In this document: positions 30,793 to 54,926 of the stretch, one piece after another | How the letters are laid out: each line of letters starts with the position of its first letter | How positions within the stretch are numbered: the stretch's first letter is position 1 | Source of the DNA: Spiroplasma sp. NBRC 100390 | GTDB taxonomy: Bacteria > Bacillota_I > Bacilli_A > Mycoplasmatales > Mycoplasmataceae | DNA length: 64,000 nucleotides | Reading direction: 5' to 3' | Assembly: GCF_001886495.1 (NCBI RefSeq) | Contig: NZ_CP018022.1 | Coordinates: forward strand, 868,001-932,000 | Program-made: the position numbers and the translations under genes | Notes under the pieces: generated by a model | The model's database searches: none | Told to the model about the DNA's origin: nothing | The model's input: only the letters and a program-made list of their open reading frames with translations

Positions 30793-31854
30793 TTATTTCC
30801 TTTCTTGTTGTGCTAAAAATGCTTTAATAGCTGTAATATAGGTTTGATGTCCCTTTGAAATTGCTTCAACATGGTTAATATTTAATAATGATACTAATTG
30901 ACTTTGGCCACTTGGCTCAAACTTTGCTTTTTGAGCAAAAAATTCTTTACTCATAAAGTAAGGAACAAAATCATCATGATCACCATGAATAATTAACATT
31001 GGAAAATCTTTTAACCGGTTGGTATGCTTTAATAAATTGTATTTTCGTAAATTAATGCCAATTTCTTTGTTAAATTTCTTTGTTAACCCAAAACTAGTTA
31101 ACCATCATGGATGTTGATAACGATATTGCATTACATACCGAAATTGGACTAATAAATTACTAAAGCCACAATCACTAACTGCTCAATGCACTAGTGAATT
31201 TTGATAACCTTCATCAATTAAATATTTTGTCAAGCAAGCAGCTCCCATACTATTTCCAATTAATCCAATTTCTTCAACACAATAATTATCTTGAAGTCAT
31301 TGAATAACATCACTTAAATTTTGCGCATTTAAATAACCAATCCCAGTATAATCTCCAGCACTTAAACCGTGCGCAACACTATCAAAAGTTAAAACATTAT
31401 AACCTTGTTGGTAAAAATGAAATACTTGTCGTAACCCTAAATATTTATTTTCTGTTCAACCATGCAACCCAATTACTCATTTTTTTGCATTAGGGTGCTG
31501 TAAATAAAGGGCACTAATTGGAGCTTGATGGCGATTTAAAATCGTCATCGTTTGCATTGCTGCTTCTTCTTTTTCACTAAAAACAAAATTAAATTGATCT
31601 AATTTTTTTGCAATAACATCCTGACGATATACTTCAAAACTATTAAAATCAAAAGTTGTTGTTTCAATTGTCATTAACCCTTTTCGTTGATAAGTTTGGG
31701 TAAATGTAAAAAAATTTTTAACATATTTTTTTGATAAAAAATAAACTAACGGAAATAATACTATCACACATAAAATGCGTCATCAATTTCAACAAAATTT
31801 ATGATAACCATCATTTAATGTTTGCTTACTCGGCGTTTTTTCAATTACTTTCAT
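30793..31854 (-). CDS. Membrane-anchored alpha/beta hydrolase
   Basis: 353 residues, one membrane segment at about residues 24-42. Catalytic pattern: WVIGLHGWTENKYLG, GLIGNSMGAAC (Ser nucleophile), IIHGDHDDFV (acid) and NHVEA (His). Paralogue of the hydrolase at 17625-18659. Predicted to face outward. First gene of an operon with the permease at 29342. RBS AGGGAAAG. Substrate unknown; esters or lipids are likely. Confidence 0.82.
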
Positions 31855-31984: not shown

Positions 31985-32824
31985 TTACTCAAAAACTACT
32001 GTTTCAATTACTTTTGCAATCCCATCATGGTCATTATCATCAGTTACTAAATTAGCAATTGCTTTGACATCATCGGGGGCATTCCCCATTGCCACCCCAA
32101 TTCCCGCTCACTGTAACATAGCAACATCATTATGTTCATTCCCAAAAGCCATGACATTCTTTGCTGTTAACCGATATTTTTGACAAATTTGTGCAATACC
32201 ACTTGCTTTATTAATATTACGACTAGTAATTTCTAACGCTGAACGATCACCACGGATTTCTTGCGAAATTTCAATTTTATCCTTTCATTTTGCAACAAAA
32301 CGATTAATATCGGAAGTATAACTACTAATATAGATTTTATTAACATTAACCTTAAAATTATTCGTATATAAACACGCTGTTACTTCATCTTGAACTTCAG
32401 TAAAAGATGATAAATAATGTTTGGTCATTTTATCTTCAAAACCCTTACAATGTAACAACATTTTATTAAACGAAGAATGATCAGCATCAAACATAATTAA
32501 GGTGTCTAAATCAAATGCCAAGACATCAGCATAAAGTTCTCGTAATAATTGTTGATCAAAATAATCACAAAATAAAATTTCTTCAGTGGCATTATTTGCC
32601 ACAACCGAGCCATTTAAACTAACAGTAAAATCATTCTTATCCGTTAATCCTAAATTTGTGACAATATGCTTTGTCTGATATAATGGCCGCCCAGTCGCAA
32701 TTACTAATTTAATATCCTTTGCCGCTAGTCCTTGCAAAACTTCTAACGTATGTGGTGACATTTCACCAGTTGAATTTAAAGCTGTTCCATCTAAATCAAC
32801 AGCAATTAACTTAATTTCTGTCAT
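31985..32824 (-). CDS. Cof-type HAD-IIB phosphatase
   Basis: 279 residues. HAD motif I AVDLDGTAL with nucleophile Asp, motif II VIATGR, and C-terminal FGNEHNDVAMLQ with GIGVAMGNAPDDVK match Cof-type sugar-phosphate or nucleotide phosphatases (family Cof/YbiV/YidA). Start set at the ATG at 32824, 10 nt after AGGAG. Terminates in its own hairpin. Substrate is not predictable; Spiroplasma genomes carry several such enzymes. Confidence 0.88.
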
Positions 32825-32988
32825 AATCAATATTCTCCTATATATAATAATTTTAATCTATTTTCTAGTACTTGTAAAAGATATTGCTAAAATTACAATA
32901 ATTATCGCTTAGTTTTAACCTTATTGATAGGAGTAAATAAAAAAGTAATCTTGAAACCCTTTCCGAGTTAAAATTTTTGGTTTATAAT

Positions 32989-33190
32989 TAAACCGTAAAG
33001 CATCACGCTTTCATTTGAATTAGCGGTAAACACTTAAAAATGTTTTGAAAAGGGAATTGAGTTAATATGCTCAAGCTGTCCCAGCAACTGTAATGATGAT
33101 GAACATTGTATTTACTCACTGAAAAAATTTTTTGGGAAGAGACAATTAGTAAAATGATTCTAAGCCAGTAGACCTGCCGTTAACTCTTGG
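32989..33190 (+). promoter_or_regulatory. Cobalamin riboswitch
   Basis: The conserved core of the cobalamin (B12) aptamer is present in order: AAAAGGGAA (about 33050), the B12 box GCTGTCCCAGCAACTGTAA (33075-33093) and AAGCCAGTAGACCTGCC (33162-33178). A TATAAT at 32983-32988 would start the transcript. It precedes a transcobalamin-like gene and an ECF S component. Downstream, GTGAGTAAATA (about 33221) can pair with TATTTACTCAC (about 33109), a candidate switching stem. No compact intrinsic terminator lies before the ATG, so control may be translational. Confidence 0.9.
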
Positions 33191-33333
33191 TAAAATAAAT
33201 ATCCCTGGGATTGTGATATTTGTGAGTAAATAATTTATTATCGTTAAATAATGATTTACCTCTCATAAATATAATAATTTTTTCCTCAAGAATGGGTTTT
33301 TATTACCACTATTTTTGAAAGGAATTATTAAAA

Positions 33334-33819
33334 ATGAAAAATTTTTCATGAAAAAAATATTTACGTTATCTTCCCTTAGCGTTAATTCTTTTAGTTGCCA
33401 TTGTTTTAAACCTTTATTATATTCCAAAATACTACCAAGAACGACACAAAAATAATTACCAAGGTACTTATACAGTAACTGTTCTTGGTCAAAAAGAAGA
33501 TTTTAGTCTTTATTTTACAAAAGGTTTAAATGTTCAACATGTTGCTAGCCTTGCTGATGTCTTAATAAACTACCCCAATGATTTTGGATTATCTCCTGGC
33601 ACAATTGGCACCTTTGTTAAACGAGTTGGTCAAATTGAATTAAATCCCAAAGTAAAGTATTTTGACATTCAAAGTGGTGATAATAATCAACCAAGTGCCG
33701 AACATATTCATAAGGATTGTCATGGCCCAAACAATTCTTGTAGTGTTGGGATTGACTTGCTGTGATTAACACCAAATACTGACAATGTCTTTCGTTTTGT
33801 TATTAGCAACGTAATTTAA
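33334..33819 (+). CDS. Membrane-anchored DUF4430/transcobalamin-like protein
   Basis: 161 residues. A membrane segment (LPLALILLVAIVLNLYYIP) at residues 14-32 anchors a domain exposed outside. That domain reads YTVTVLGQKEDFSLYF ... LADVLINYP ... SPGTIGTFVKRVGQIELN, close to DUF4430, the fold shared with the C-terminal half of intrinsic factor and transcobalamin. With the riboswitch upstream and an ECF S component next, a cobalamin-capturing surface protein is the natural inference. Two Cys in HKDCHGPNNSC may form a disulphide. RBS GAAAGGAA. First gene of the operon. Confidence 0.75.
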
Positions 33820-33841
33820 CCTTAGAAACGAGTGATGAAAT

Positions 33842-34492
33842 ATGAAAAAAATTAAGAAAGAAGATATTTGACCTTCAACTTTAAAAATAACCTTAAAAAT
33901 GACCGTCATTGCTCTTTTTAGTGGTTTAGCTTTAGGGCTAAAAATTGCTTTTGCTTTTTTACCAAACATTGAATTTGTTACCTTTATTTTAATGTTTAGT
34001 ATTATTTTCTTCAGAATTGAAGTTGGTTTTGGCATTATTAATGTCTTTTGTGCTTTAAATATGGTTTATTTTGGGGTCGCTGATTGGAGTATTATGTACT
34101 TTATTATTTTTAACTTATACGGTGTAATTATGTTTCTTTGTAAACCCCTTGTTTACTGAGGGTGATGAATGATAATTATTATTTGTGGTTTAATGGGCTA
34201 TTTGTTTGGAACATTATATGCCCTTCAAGTAACCATCCTATATGATCAAAGTGTTGGGTTAGCATACTGAATAAAGGGCCTTACCTTTGATGCAATTCAT
34301 GGTACCAGCAACATTGTTATTTGTGCCGTGTTCTATCCAATTGTTTACAAATTAATGCAAACATTATATCCAAAATGACCTTACTTATTTAATAAGAAAT
34401 TTATTAAATATCTTCAAAAAGATAAACCCCAAATAGAACCAGCAACAACCGTGCCACTTGATTCTAATAATAAAAAAATACCAGTTGAATAA
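33842..34492 (+). CDS. ECF transporter S component, probably cobalamin-specific
   Basis: 216 residues with about six membrane segments and a long first helix region (TLKMTVIALFSGLALGLKIAF), typical of S components that bind the vitamin and dock on a shared ECF A-A'-T module. That module is not in this window. The riboswitch and the transcobalamin-like partner point to cobalamin. Distinct in sequence from the ECF-like protein at 53477. 22 bp separate it from the upstream gene; RBS is weak (translation coupling likely). The final codons overlap the terminator stem. Confidence 0.75.
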
Positions 34493-34508
34493 CAACTGGT
34501 ATTTTTTT
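34472..34508 (+). terminator. Terminator of the B12-uptake operon
   Basis: Stem AAAAAATACCAGTTG with complement CAACTGGTATTTTTT around a 5-nt loop that includes the stop codon, with a T-tract on the plus strand. Confidence 0.85.
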
Positions 34509-34838
34509 GGTTGGTCAATAATCACAAATTTATTTTAAATTTAACTGGCTAATAATATCAATTTATTTTTACTCAAAATAATCAACAGGTAGTAAACATT
34601 ATTACATTAATATATAGTTTCATCATCTTTACTGATTAATAAATAGAGGTCTAATTAAAAAGGATATTCTATTAAAATATGCAGTTTATCCTTCTTTAAA
34701 ATAAATTTATAATTATTATATATATTATACTCTTTTTTCTTGGAAAATGAAATATTATTTTGTAAAAATAATATTTCATCTTTTATTTTTTAATTAATAA
34801 ATCCTAAATAATCACAATTAAATTTAAGCACAAATTTA
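34509..34838. other. Spacer between convergent operons with a second hairpin
   Basis: About 330 bp without genes. ATGAAATATTATTTT (34747-34761) and its complement (34765-34779) form a 15-bp hairpin followed by T-rich sequence on the plus strand, possibly a backup terminator. A 15-mer TTATAATTATTATAT near 34706 resembles a PerR box, but no gene starts there. Confidence 0.4.
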
Positions 34839-34880: not shown

Positions 34881-37415
34881 TTATAACCCACATTTTAACT
34901 GAACATTGCAGTTATTACATGTAACACAGCCACCAGCATCAATCATTGTTCCTTCTTTACAAATTGGACAAACATCACCAACTTCAGCACCAATGTTACG
35001 GTCTTGATTAATTCCACGTAATTTTCCAACTGTTTCAAGATTTTCCGTTACTTTTTTATTTGGACGATTATCAACTTCAACCCCCAAATCATCTAAGTTT
35101 AATTGTTCTAATGCTGGGTGGTTTTCATCGGTTGTTAATGATAATACTTGTGAATCACGTGAACCATCAACATAGACCGTTCCCCCTTTGGCACCACCTT
35201 TATATAAACGGGTATAAATTTTTTCAACATCTTTTACCGAATATCCTCGTGGAGCATTAACGGTTTTTGAAATTGAGGAATCAACTCAACGTTGAATAAT
35301 ACATTGGGTATCCGCATGATCTTCTGGGGCTAAATCCATTGCGGCAACAAAAATATCTGGTAATGTTTCTGCCGTATATTCCGGATTATATTTTAATCAT
35401 TCATCAACAATTTTAGCATTAACTTCAATGTTTTTTCCTAATCGTCCTGAACGGTAGAACTTAAAGCCAAAGTATGGTTCTAATCCAGTTGAAACTCCAA
35501 CCATTGTTCCAGTTGAACCAGTTGGTGCAATTGTTAATAAGTGTGAATTACGAATTCCATGTTTTAGAATTTCTTGACGAATATCTTCTGGCATTTTTTT
35601 CATATAACCAGTTTCAATGAATTTTTCACGAGATGATAAAAATGGAAATGACCCTTTTTCTTGAGCTAAAACAATTGATGCTCGATAAGCTTCCGTAGCA
35701 ATTAATTCAAATATCTTATCAACAATTTTATTTCCTGCTTTGCTTCCATAACGAACACCATGGAAAATTAACAAGTCATGTAATCCCATTACTCCTAATC
35801 CAACTCTTCGTTCACCTAGCGCTTGTTTTTGGTTAGCTTCTAAGAAATACGGTGTTGCATCAATTACATCATCTTGCATACGAACACAAGTTTCAACAGT
35901 TGTTTTTAGTTTATCATATAAGATTTCTTTTGTTGCTTTATTAACAAAATTAGCTAAGTTAATCGCTGCTAAGTTACATACCGAATAAGGCGCCAATGGT
36001 TGTTCTCCACAAGGGTTTGTGGCAACAACTTTCATCCCATAAGCTTTGGCATTTGTCATGTCATTTGCAGTATCCAAGAAGAAAATTCCTGGTTCTGCTG
36101 AGTAATTAGCACAGAAATTAATTAAGTCTCATAAATCACGAGCACGCATACGATAATATGTCTTAACTTTATATCCCATTGCTTGTCATTCATTAATATC
36201 ACCAATTTCAGCTCATTTTTCATCATAAAAAGCTTTTTCTGCTTTGGTATAGTTATCTAAGTCCGGAAATTGTAGTTCTCATTCAACATCATCTTCAACT
36301 GCTTTCATAAATTTATGCGTTAAAGTTACTGAAATATTTGCTCCCGATAAGAATGAAGGATTATTAACTTCCCAAGCACCACCTTCTTCTAACTTGATGC
36401 GAGCTTCATTAATAACACGATCATTACCAATTTCAGTTTCATTATTTAAAGCATATTCATAAAGATTACGATCTAATTCTGATAATGGCGCAAACTTAAT
36501 TTTTCGACTTGCTTCATCACGAATTAATTTGTCTTTTGAATTTTCTTTTAATCAACGTAAAATTTTTGGGTTTTGCATTTTAGAAATAATAAATTCAATC
36601 ACATCTGGATGCCAATCAGCCATCATAATCATTTGAGCACCACGACGTGATCCCCCTTGTTCCACTAAATGGGTTAATGTTGATAAGTCATTTAATCATG
36701 ATACGGCTCCCGATGAACGACCACCAACACTTTTAGCCACTGTTCCACGGGGACGTAATGTTGAACCATTTGTTCCAACGCCACCCCCATGTGACATAAT
36801 TTCCATCACTTCTTTTCGATGGATTGAAATTCCTTCCCGTGAATCTTTAATAAATGGCATTACGAAACAGTTAAAAAAAGTAACATCACTATTACTTCCA
36901 GCCCCATATAATACCCGTCCGGCAGGAATAATATTTAAATCTTTTAATTCATTAAAAAACTGGTCACGATAAACATTATGCTTTTGTTCATTTTTACTAA
37001 GGGCATTCCCCACCCTTCAGGCAATTTGTTCGTAAAAGATTTCTAATGGTTTTTCAACCATATGCAAGTTTTTTCGAATTATATTATTTGAATTATTAAT
37101 TAATAAATCGGGATCAATGCTATGAGCATAATCATCTTCAATTTGAATATCAACAGTATCGTTTTTACGATCAACAGCAACAACATTCCCAATTCCCCGC
37201 GTTGGAAATCAACCATCATCTTTAATTACAGTTAATACTAAATCATTTGCTTTTAATGTTTTTAGTTCATTATCTTTTTGAGCATAACGATCAAGCACGA
37301 CCATTCTTGAAACCCCAGCAAAAACCATATTATAATTCTCTTCGATTTCTTTTAAATGGGGAAAATGTTCTCTGATATCCTTATTTAAACTATTAATTAA
37401 TTCTTTTGAGTACAT
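34881..37415 (-). CDS. nrdJ: B12-dependent class II ribonucleoside-diphosphate reductase
   Basis: 844 residues, the size of NrdJ proteins. Key features: NCFVMPFIKD near residue 180 (first active-site Cys), the Gly/Asn segment SHGGGVGTNGSTLRPRG, NPCGEQPLAPYSVCNL with the radical Cys, APTGSTGTMVGVSTGLEP, and a C-terminal zinc-ribbon-like tail CPICKEG ... CVTCNNC ending LKCGL that supplies the reducing cysteines. This class needs adenosylcobalamin and works with or without oxygen. Most mollicutes use class Ib NrdEF instead. The neighbouring riboswitch-controlled B12 uptake operon fits the cofactor demand. RBS AAGGAGG; an extended -10 TGGTATACT lies near 37470. Confidence 0.92.
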
Positions 37416-37563
37416 CTTGTTCTTCCTCCTTACTCATTCCATTCCTATTGTCAAAGACATAAAATAAGTATACCAAACTTTACTAATAAATTAATATTTT
37501 TTCAAAACGTAATAATAATTTAAACATAATTTAAAAATAGTCACAAAATATATTTATTTTTTG

Positions 37564-42703: not shown

Positions 42704-45700
42704 TTAACTTTCCATTAACACAATTTCTTGAATATTTAATTTATTAATTTTTTTCATTGAAACAAAGTATGAGAAAACATATAAAATAATAATTCCTCCT
42801 AAAATAATTGGCAAGGTAATTAACCCCGTTCCAATCGGAACATAGAGGTTAAAGAACATTAGAACTTTTTGAGTAATTGTTCAGGCTAATCCTCATGTAA
42901 TGAAATAACCAATTAACCACCCAACAATTGCAAAGGGAATAAAAATTCCTAATGTTAAATTATTAATTTCTCACCGACTATAACCTTGTACTTTCATTGT
43001 GGCAATGATCTTAATAAACTTCTTAATAAACAGATCAATTGCAAAGTAAATTGTAATAACTGAAACCATAATGATAATAACAATAAAAATTAGGGCAACG
43101 GATAAAGCAATAACAATAACGCGATTCATCACTTGTGATTTAATCCCAACATAATCTGCCGACAAGACAGATGATGTATAAGAAGTTGTAAAGTTATTTA
43201 AGGATAAATCACCATTGGTCGATGATAAAGCATAACGATTAATTTGATCAGATGGTTGCAATTCAGTTGTATATTTTCCGTTATACCATTGCATTACATT
43301 AGCCTGACCATTTAATTTTGTTGTTGGGAATAAATTAATTTTATTTGCATTTTGCATACTAACAAATAAGCGGGGATTATCATAAGTAGCAATACTTTTT
43401 ACAATTTTAACTTTCACTGGCAGTGCTGTTAATGACGGTGCAACTTTAATAAAATTATTATCAACCGCTGCTTGATATCACGTTGTTGGAATACCATTTA
43501 CAAAGTCACCACTATATGAACTATCAAAGTTAAAATCATATGGTTTAATAACTCAATATTCCTGACTATTAACTGTCTCTTTTCGCACTATTTTATTAGT
43601 CCCTGTTGATACTTCCAATAATTTCCGTTGTTGACCATTATTCAACGTAATTACTTTATTCGTTCAAATTTGTTCCATTGCCAAATTAGATGGAATCCAT
43701 AATTCAACATTATTTAAATTATAATATTCACTCTTTCGATCTGTTGAAGCATAATACTTCGTATTAGCACTTGTATTATAAGTAAAATAACTTTTATCTA
43801 GAGAATATAGGCTTTGATAATTACTTGGATTTCATGAACCCGAATTACCACTAAGGTTATATTTCCAGCTTTGGTTAACTAAGGTGGTATTATTATTACT
43901 AAACTCTGTTCACTGATTTGGACCAACATTATATTGCAAGGTTGATAATTGTGGAGTTAAAGTAATCTCTTGTCCAACCCATAGATTTAGTCGTTGGAGT
44001 GCTGTCACATTTGCAATTGCGTTGATAACTTGGCTATTATTAGTTGTTAAAGCAGCGCGATCATCTGCTGATAATTTTAACATTTTTGTATTAGCATTAA
44101 TCCCGTAAACTGGTAAGTTTTTTTCATTATATGCTGCATCAAAACTCGTGAAAAGATCATCAGTTGCATTGTTATAACTCATTGTCCCAATTCCCAAGGC
44201 AAAGTGATTTGCTCGATCAGGATTTTTATTTCAATCTTCTTTGACCGAAGCAGGAATAATTCCATTTGTTGCTTTACTAAAACAAGTATTTCATAAAGCA
44301 ACATAATCACCTTTATCGGGAAACGGTGGATATGGAATCGCCCCAATTCCAAGCGCTTTTGGCAAAACAGTACATAAAATTTCAGAAATTAAAGCGCGAA
44401 CACTATCACCGGCTGGTGAATTTTTTACTAGTTCATTAAGATAATTAAAAATTCCTAATGACAGGTTAGTTCCTGATAAAGTAACAAAATTATATGACAA
44501 CATATCTTTTAAAATTCCAGCTACCGTTGGTTCTTGGCTTACTGCTTTTAATGGTTTAATTGTTTGACCGCCATTAATACTATAGTAATTTGCTAACGGT
44601 GTCATTCCCCCAATTGGATATAAATAAGAGTCAACTGGATCACCAGTGTTTGGAACATTATTAATTCCATTTCATGCATAAGTTTTATAATATGACAATG
44701 GACTATTACTAATGACATTACTATATTTAACCTCACTACCATACTTAATATTTTTATAATAGTTTGTATTAAAGTTTTTGACATAAACTGGTGCTAATAA
44801 TGATACCGTTAAAGTAAAGGTCACTAAAGTAAAGATTCCTAAATAAGTAAAGGCTTGTTTTAAGGAGGTTGATAAAACCACCATTCGGAAGCGACCAACA
44901 AAGGTTTTAAAGTGTAAACTACGAACAGAACGTGCTAACTTACTATCAACATTTAATTCACGCGTTGGATAAATTAAACTTAATACTTCTGTTTTACTAA
45001 TTGAAAAATAACAAGTAACAAATGTAATCAACGATAGAAAAGCAACAAAAAACACCAGTAAAAAGATTAGAATCATTCAGTTTCAAGTAAAGGTTCAATT
45101 AATAATAAAGAATAAATTAAATAACTTTACAACAAAGAGTTGGAGCGTGATACCGACTAACCAACCGGTCGGAACCGCAATTAAAACACTAACCATTAAA
45201 ATACTTCAATAAGATAAAGAAATTTCACGAAGATAATATCCACCCGCTTTTAACATTCCAATTTGTGATGATTCGCGTTTAATCATTTCTTTAATAATAA
45301 TATATGAAACAACAAATAATGTTATCGCAAAGATAATAATGAAAAATAACCCAATATAAATATAAACGTTAATTGTTTTTGCTAGTAAACTATAGCGCCA
45401 TGTTAATTGGTTTGTTTCATTTTTAGCTTCAAAAGTACCAATTGAAGGATCAGTTCCTTTTTGATTATTACTTATTTGTAATCCTTGCGCATAAACATCT
45501 AATTGATTAGGATTGTTAGCATAATATTTTTTAAAAAGAGCTAAATTACCTGCTGGTTGACCAGCTAAACTTTTTAAAAAAACACGTGAATTATCTTTTA
45601 AACTAATTAATCCTTTATTATTATCCTCTGATAATAACGACATACCATATGAAGACAAGTACACAACAGTATCTGTTTTAAAATTAGGAATAAAGTCTGT

Positions 45701-47062
45701 TTCATAAATTGTTGGATAAATATTTAACGTGTCTCCCCCTGTCGCACCAACTGTGAAAGTTTGCTGGCCAATCTTAATATCATCGCGTAACTTCTTCTTC
45801 TGAATTTTTAAATAATTTGGACTAACAACAGCATAAGAATTACTTAATATTGATTCATTAAGCGATGGTCCTTCTCACTCCCAAACTTTATCAAAGATCT
45901 TCAATTGATTATCTTTTATTAGATCATGTCAACCAATAACCTTATATTTTGAATTATTAACAATATCTCATGTTGTAACTTCTTGACGCATTGAAATCAC
46001 AAAATTACTAACAATTCCTAGCATCTTGTAATAATTTTGAACAAAATTAATAAACGAACTTCGTTCACTATAATTTCCAAAAAAAGGAACCTTATTAAAC
46101 AAATCACCAATAACCATTCGCCCTTCGTTAATTCCAGTTTGGTTTAATTTATCAATGTATTGATAAGGAGATTGGCCTAAATATTGAATTCGTTGTTCTA
46201 CATTACCAGCACTATCTGTTACAGTATAACGTGATGCAACACCAAAACTACCCCGTAAGCCTTCATCAAACAAAGTATTTGTGTTAACAACATCAATCGT
46301 TTTATTGTCTTTCCCTAACGTTACCATAACATCTGGCATATCAAAATGTTGAAAATCATTGTTTGTTGTTTTTAAGTTTCAATGTCAACGATTAATCGCT
46401 TTCAAATTTTGATCAGCTTGCCCATTAGTAAAAACAGCAATCGCATTTTGAATCTCAGCTGTTGTTGACGTTGGATGCTTTGATAAAAAATCTTTATTAA
46501 TATAATCAGTAATAATTCCTAAAAAGTTTTTATAAATTTGAGTTGTTTTAAAAGCGGCAAAATATTGGTCAGATAACGCATTCTGCCCCATTGCCCGTAA
46601 TTTTGCAATTAATGTATTTTGATAATTAGGTGCTGATAACCGAATTTTTAGAGCCAACCCTAAAGCAGTTATTTCTCCAGAAGGTAATTTATCAAACGTA
46701 ATGTCTTGTGGCGTTAAAGCATAAAAAACATCACTATTTGCGGCTCCAATTGTAATTTTTGGATATGTTAATTTATTATCATTGTTTTCTACAAGAACAT
46801 ATTCTGAATCAAATGCAAAACTCGGCGTAATTGTTTGCATATTTGAATTTTCAAATTCCATTGCTGAATAATGGAAAGAATAATTATAATCAAAACTGCC
46901 GTATCCCATTTGACGGTTCGCTGCTTGTAAACTAGTTACCGTTGTAAATAAACAAGAAGTGATAATTGAGCAAATAAAAATTAAAAGGAGCAATGAAATA
47001 AATTGTCCTTTTGCTTTAATTATTCCTAAAATTCCTTGCTTCATTAACAATGTCTTTTTCAT
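42704..47062 (-). CDS. Giant FtsX-like ABC permease
   Basis: 1452 residues. One membrane segment at about 20-40, a long extracellular region, a three-segment FtsX/MacB-type bundle (from NVYIYIGLFFIIIFAITLFV to about 745), a further large external domain and a second bundle near the C-terminus (NRVIVIALSVALIFIVIII; SRWEINNLTLGIFIPF). The cytoplasmic SQIGMLKAGGY and IIATMKVQGYSR loops are the usual FtsX coupling helices, one per half, so the protein is a tandem. It follows a lipoprotein gene by 21 bp. Such permeases need an ATPase; none is in this operon. No clear Shine-Dalgarno, so translation is probably coupled. Many TGA=Trp codons. Confidence 0.85.
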
Positions 47063-54549: not shown

Positions 54550-54926
54550 TAACATCATAACCCACGTTCTGTTTTTTATTTAATAAAATAAAATACTAGT
54601 TATTTATCTATCAATTTGTTAAAATTGATCTTCTTATTTTCTTCTGCTTTGAAAAAAAGAAGTTCCCTTACCAAAATTTAGGTTTCTCGCTTGTGGGGTT
54701 TACCCGTTCCATTTTTTAAATTTCTTTAAAAACTCGTTTCTGTGGCACTTTTATAGAAAAAATTCCATATTAATAAATAACTTAGGATTTTTTTCAGCCG
54801 TCATAAGGATCCCTTATGCCTAATCTTATGAATTAAATTAGCACAAACACTACAATCATCGCAGATTGTGCGAGCGTGGAGTTTCCTCTATTAACTGTTG
54901 TTAATAGCAACTAGTTCTGTTATAAC
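54550..54926 (-). ncRNA. rnpB: RNase P RNA (type B)
   Basis: Read on the minus strand, the conserved segments of bacterial RNase P RNA appear in order: GAGGAAACTCC, GTGCCACAGAAACGA, ACGGGTAAACCCCACAAGCG, GGTAAGGGAA, and CAGAACGTGGGTTATG near the 3' end, which closes P1 with the 5' end (UAUAAC/GUUAUG). Ends are estimated from this pairing. A TATAAT lies just upstream (about 54935-54940) and a terminator just downstream. The RNA is the catalytic part of RNase P that matures tRNA 5' ends. The neighbour gpsB gene is also found beside rnpB in Bacillus. Confidence 0.93.

Follow-up and report, generated by a model that had tools for sequence, protein, structure and literature searches.

Systems for vitamin B12 uptake of the BtuFCD and BtuG types likewise have a surface or periplasmic protein which captures the vitamin and feeds a membrane importer; their folds are unrelated to that of the protein described below, and BtuFCD is a classical ABC importer. 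In other descriptions of ECF transporters, the binding protein is the S component.

The role of the B12-specific S component CbrT was predicted by Rodionov et al. in 2009 (as cited in PMC5997447), and CbrT was characterised in 2018 (PMC5997447). ECF-CbrT imports cobalamin and cobinamide; CbrT by itself is given the role of binding the substrate, and in Lactobacillus delbrueckii B12 is transported as ECF-CbrT with no capture protein described (PMC5997447). Burroughs et al. (2007; PMC1796856) defined a transcobalamin-like clade of SLBB beta-grasp domains in low-GC Gram-positives, with surface signals and with operons containing CbiO/CbiQ-like genes, and proposed that its members scavenge B12 and that the animal B12 carriers were acquired from low-GC Gram-positives.

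Here we describe a locus of a Spiroplasma-like Mollicute in which a gene for a transcobalamin beta-domain-like protein and a cbrT gene lie together behind a cobalamin riboswitch. The window, by which we mean the whole 64,000-nt stretch of DNA analysed, corresponds to positions 868001-932000 of the complete 1.2 Mb genome (G000), in which UGA is read as Trp. Genetic code, genome size and relatives point to a Spiroplasma-like Mollicute.

Results

Organisation of the locus

The riboswitch is followed by gene 1, whose protein is labelled P0001, and gene 2, cbrT (Table 1). Reading both ORFs at full length requires UGA = Trp (code 4), with two UGA codons in gene 1 and six in gene 2. The genes are spaced by 22 nt and the terminator hairpin overlaps the 3' end of gene 2. 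Since a riboswitch and two close ORFs are followed by a strong terminator, we interpret the locus as a bicistronic riboswitch-led operon. The first-pass annotation had delimited the system at 32989-34492, of which the end was exact, while the start lies 18 nt 5' of the beginning of the aptamer model. nrdJ is a convergent neighbour outside the operon and is likely the consumer of the imported B12. The genes for a HAD hydrolase (31985-32830) and an alpha/beta hydrolase (30793-31854), which adjoin on the opposite strand, were left out of the system. Elsewhere in the window, both on the reverse strand, are a bacterial class B RNase P RNA (RF00011, 263 bits; 54553-54922) and a gene for a 1452-aa membrane protein (42704-47062) which by eye resembles a permease of the FtsX/MacB type whose extracellular regions are large.

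Table 1 Features of the locus, in window coordinates.
Feature	Position	Strand	Evidence
Cobalamin riboswitch aptamer (RF00174)	33007..33195	+	cmscan 107 bits, E 8.1e-26, model 1-189 complete
Candidate expression platform	33207..33324	+	Two predicted hairpins, folding
Gene 1, putatively membrane-anchored DUF4430/transcobalamin beta-domain-like protein, 161 aa	33334..33819	+	Translation (code 4), AF2 model, structure and profile comparison
Gene 2, CbrT-type ECF S component for vitamin B12, 216 aa	33842..34492	+	phmmer, profile, AF2 fold
Intrinsic terminator closing the two-gene operon	34471..34509	+	Fold -19.2 kcal/mol, z -6.8, U tract in 3' arm
nrdJ, class II (adenosylcobalamin-dependent) ribonucleotide reductase	34881..37460	-	NF005991 1320.8 bits, TIGR02504 559 bits, both over cut-off

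Riboswitch and leader

A cobalamin riboswitch had been proposed at this position from the letters alone, and the Rfam covariance search bore this out, RF00174 scoring 107 bits where the gathering score is 31.5. When the whole genome was searched with the same model, the window site was recovered together with three further sites. No paper on cobalamin riboswitches in Spiroplasma was found in a literature search that covered few subscription papers.

The leader between aptamer and gene 1 (33196-33340) has a minimum free energy of -30.5 kcal/mol (z -3.2). In the predicted fold a first hairpin (33207-33281) ends in a U run, and in a second (33282-33324) the GGAA of the ribosome-binding site is base-paired to UUCC. 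Positions 33109-33119 of the aptamer are perfectly complementary over 11 nt to 33222-33232, an arm of the first hairpin. This complement is kept in four genomes and was equalled in 12 of 500 shuffles, making it only moderately unlikely by chance, and the switch mechanism is therefore offered as a proposal: the 11-nt alternative pairing is suggestive only, and the assignment of the leader pairings to ON and OFF states, like the direction of switching, is inferred. A terminator scan returned no terminator in the leaders of the window and of two other loci (L026 and L027), yet folding shows a hairpin in the window leader, and the terminator at 34471-34509, likewise visible on folding, escaped the scan as well. 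By eye, the L026 and L027 leaders contain a GGGCC/GGUCC or GAACC/GGUUC hairpin with a U tract.

A transcobalamin-like domain in gene 1

The AF2 model of P0001 (pLDDT 74 overall, 56-86 in the domain) consists of a single membrane helix at about residues 13-37, as would be expected of the single-pass protein suggested earlier, and a beta-grasp domain at about 42-161 with a hairpin insert carrying Cys129 and Cys136. The helix of the beta-grasp (73-77) is followed by a hairpin of strands 84-88 and 93-98. Compared by VIA-align, the model matched the DUF4430 structure 3u7z with Z 11.9 over 96 residues and fourteen beta-domain entries of transcobalamin, intrinsic factor and haptocorrin with Z 9.8-10.8, the next, unrelated row being at 5.9; it should be noted that the alignment given to AF2 included clostridial DUF4430s, which may pull the model toward the DUF4430 fold.

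Profile-profile comparison with an independent set of 36 clostridial DUF4430 proteins gave 98.6% and E 7e-16, no sequence being common to both sides, and a profile of P0001 with its clostridial relatives found human transcobalamin-1 (4kki, E 3.6e-6) and gastric intrinsic factor (E about 0.015) in the PDB. The Pfam DUF4430 model was matched by 7 of the 24 Mollicute family members (best 1e-8). P0001 itself had no match above cut-off to PF14478 (DUF4430), and was for this reason classed as a divergent relative and not as a Pfam DUF4430 member; a phmmer search of the PDB with P0001 also returned no match. The resemblance to DUF4430 and transcobalamin noted at first sight stands on relatives, profile-profile comparison and structure model, and nothing else was found at comparable Z. 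Neither of the two outcomes named beforehand as refuting the first-pass reading, a failed covariance search or a model unlike DUF4430/transcobalamin, was thus obtained. Sub-threshold matches of P0001 in Pfam/NCBIfam to Sigma_reg_N (0.079) and ComEA_MAG0490 (0.1) were judged to be noise from the membrane region, it being noted that ComEA does hold an SLBB domain.

P0001 lacks the Trp conserved in most relatives, having KYFDI in place of YWxI. Its longer two-Cys hairpin before the G-I-D motif is found in many Mollicute members and in an Erysipelothrix protein (L095); clostridial DUF4430 proteins have short YVNG-type turns at this position. The domain would face outwards and would bind cobalamin, a ligand with which the isolated transcobalamin beta domain has been solved in complex (cyanocobalamin, PDB 5np4).

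Gene 2 is a CbrT homologue

Gene 2 had been taken for an ECF S component, and both its homology and the fold of its model agree. The sole match in the PDB was 6fnp_A, the CbrT of L. delbrueckii ECF-CbrT, with a single sequence (phmmer E 3.7e-8) as well as with a profile (E 4.2e-26). The AF2 model has a pLDDT of 91, and ECF S components fill the first nine rows of its Foldseek comparison (probability 0.85-1.00, with weak E-values). We found one EcfT in the genome (PF02361, 147 bits) at 224132, as expected for a shared ECF module. From its sequence, gene 2 is predicted to transport cobalamin.

Pairing of DUF4430 and CbrT across genomes

A CbrT profile searched against 84,980 species genomes gave 62 other loci, almost all from Firmicutes and mostly from Clostridia. 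A DUF4430 gene directly adjoins cbrT in 60 of these 62, mostly within about 100 nt, and a cobalamin riboswitch lies directly upstream in 34 of the 62 (10 of 16, 9 of 12, 10 of 14, 4 of 11 and 1 of 9 loci). This adjacency backs the idea, put forward in the first-pass annotation, of a two-part system made of a capture protein and an S component, in which binding and hand-over would be the tasks of the first part. A paper linking DUF4430 to CbrT was not found in the literature search, which covered few subscription papers; the Mollicute member and the near-obligate DUF4430-CbrT pairing are new here.

CbrT and NrdJ also occur together: across 99 Mollicute genomes 21 had both, 69 had neither and 9 had only one (Fisher p 1.6e-13, with kinship ignored). 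BtuR was present in all 17 CbrT genomes within a set of 60 genomes for BtuR, and in three Mollicutes (G024, G031 and G036) nrdJ, cbrT, btuR and a DUF4430-like gene are consecutive as one cluster.

B12 demand and the wider riboswitch regulon

NrdJ is the only ribonucleotide reductase detected in the genome, in which neither a class I small subunit nor a class III reductase was found. An adenosyltransferase of the BtuR type is present; none of the PduO type was found in the 99 genomes.

The three further riboswitches precede different genes. Behind one (G000:C1:37819-37987; L004, L192) comes a secreted paralogue of gene 1, DUF4430-like and without an adjoining CbrT, and then a lipoprotein of 299 aa and an ABC-ATPase-like protein of 641 aa. 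Another (G000:C1:1116437-1116622; L002, L193) is followed by a 327-aa lipoprotein of no known family. What appears to be the same lipoprotein family was seen elsewhere (L158, L168, L176) in riboswitch operons with an ABC-2-like permease, and L158 also has a DUF4430 gene. Lipoprotein and permease are possibly a second, undescribed B12-linked transport system.

The third (G000:C1:497526-497696; L003, L191) is followed by deoD, a deoxynucleoside kinase gene (dNK) and the transketolase gene tkt. With a B12-dependent enzyme as the one ribonucleotide reductase detected, the arrangement suggests that B12 governs deoxynucleoside salvage through a riboswitch; this apparent control is new here, and the literature search returned no account of it. 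In related Mollicutes, cobalamin riboswitches lie directly before class Ib nrdF-nrdI-nrdE (L162, L170, L175, L160, L190) or class III nrdD-nrdG (L164). A broken nrdD behind a riboswitch was seen in L187. The pattern in these sequences is that B12-independent deoxynucleotide routes, as predicted from their genes, sit under a B12 switch. The riboswitch before deoD is kept in G006 (L165), G003 (L171) and G001 (L197), genomes in which no NrdJ, NrdF or CbrT, and indeed no reductase, was detected; there it is apparently an orphan switch and a possible relic.

Discussion

We hold it to be probable that this is a B12-repressed B12-uptake operon feeding NrdJ in a Spiroplasma-like Mollicute, a reading for which computation supplies the riboswitch, the operon, the fold of gene 1, the homology of gene 2 to CbrT, the finding of EcfT, BtuR and NrdJ in the genome, and the conserved pairing. 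When cobalamin is scarce, the riboswitch would permit expression of the operon. Gene 1 would display its stand-alone transcobalamin beta domain, tethered by the N terminus, on the outside of the single membrane, capture cobalamin there and hand it to the CbrT S component, whose import would be energised by the shared ECF module. The BtuR-type enzyme would adenosylate the imported B12 for use by NrdJ; at high B12 the aptamer would fold and the leader would shut the operon. Most likely, then, the two genes jointly scavenge the B12 required by the only ribonucleotide reductase for DNA building blocks.

Some points tell against this part for gene 1. L. delbrueckii ECF-CbrT transports B12 without a described capture protein (PMC5997447), so that gene 1 may be accessory. 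The animal carriers, moreover, use an alpha toroid besides the beta domain, and gene 1 has none. In a rival reading, gene 1 binds no free cobalamin and is a structural or assembly partner, serving for example to hold the S component or a B12-protein complex at the surface, while CbrT alone captures B12. The account of CbrT as a binding subunit alone (PMC5997447) would suit this, as would the missing family Trp and the differing hairpin with two Cys in P0001. We nevertheless think it rather unlikely, given that gene 1 has the fold of the half with which the animal carriers contact B12, that the transcobalamin beta domain crystallised alone with cyanocobalamin (5np4) and that the secreted paralogue, which has no CbrT beside it, is also under a cobalamin riboswitch.

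The cargo might also differ from complete B12. Cobinamide is also imported by ECF-CbrT (PMC5997447), and the pair might bring in such a corrinoid precursor or another cobamide; set against this, BtuR and NrdJ require only adenosylation of complete cobamides, and we regard this reading as quite unlikely. That the operon is a decaying, non-functional remnant being lost in the clade is a highly improbable reading, although losses are on record: in G002 (L194) an insertion sequence cuts the gene 1 orthologue after about 35 residues and cbrT is missing, with nrdJ and btuR kept; in G013 the orthologue is frameshifted; and none was found in G001, G003, G006 and G011. Against it, G000 has undamaged ORFs, aptamer and terminator as well as NrdJ, BtuR and EcfT, and the orthologues in G005, G012, G007 and G009 (44-86% identity) have intact frames.

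Compared with the L. delbrueckii system (6fnp; PMC5997447), the present operon has an S component whose homology extends along almost the whole protein, a shared ECF module of group II and, in related genomes, the same neighbourhood of nrdJ and an adenosyltransferase; it differs in that a DUF4430 gene and a riboswitch precede cbrT and in that the host is wall-less. The L. delbrueckii cluster has a gene named cbrS, which could be the DUF4430 counterpart. With the transcobalamin-like SLBB clade (PMC1796856; 3u7z) gene 1 shares fold, link to ECF operons, a predicted surface location and a predicted part in B12 scavenging, whereas P0001 is a stand-alone, putatively anchored domain, falls below the Pfam cut-off and has a longer Cys hairpin, and its partner is an S component and not CbiQ/CbiO as in the 2007 operons. 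The likeness to animal transcobalamin, intrinsic factor and haptocorrin lies in the beta domain; at 161 aa P0001 has no N-terminal alpha/alpha toroid, is predicted to be membrane anchored and would serve an ECF transporter instead of a receptor.

The concept of capture is not new, since surface B12 scavengers in ECF operons were already predicted in 2007 (PMC1796856). Calling the capture part little studied, as had been done for this locus, is fair, with the proviso that it was published as a prediction in that paper. The kind of system is already known but experimentally thin, and the Spiroplasma-like operon is an added member of it. We are evenly divided on a wider generalisation, namely that DUF4430, a separate capture protein amounting to half a transcobalamin, pairs obligately with CbrT outside the cell in this branch of ECF transport, and that Mollicute B12 riboswitches also toggle between synthesis by NrdJ and deoD-dNK-tkt salvage or other reductases.

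The bacterial transcobalamin-like domain has been labelled a 'domain of unknown function', and 3u7z a 'putative metal binding protein'. Its pairing with CbrT in 60 of 62 loci makes the 2007 prediction a directly testable two-protein system. Capturing B12 at the surface likely matters where gut and host-associated Gram-positives compete, and the system may bear on the origin of the animal B12 carriers, as these were proposed to have been acquired from low-GC Gram-positives (PMC1796856). For Spiroplasma-like bacteria, the locus and its regulon point to a B12-dependent synthesis of DNA precursors with a B12-sensing backup.
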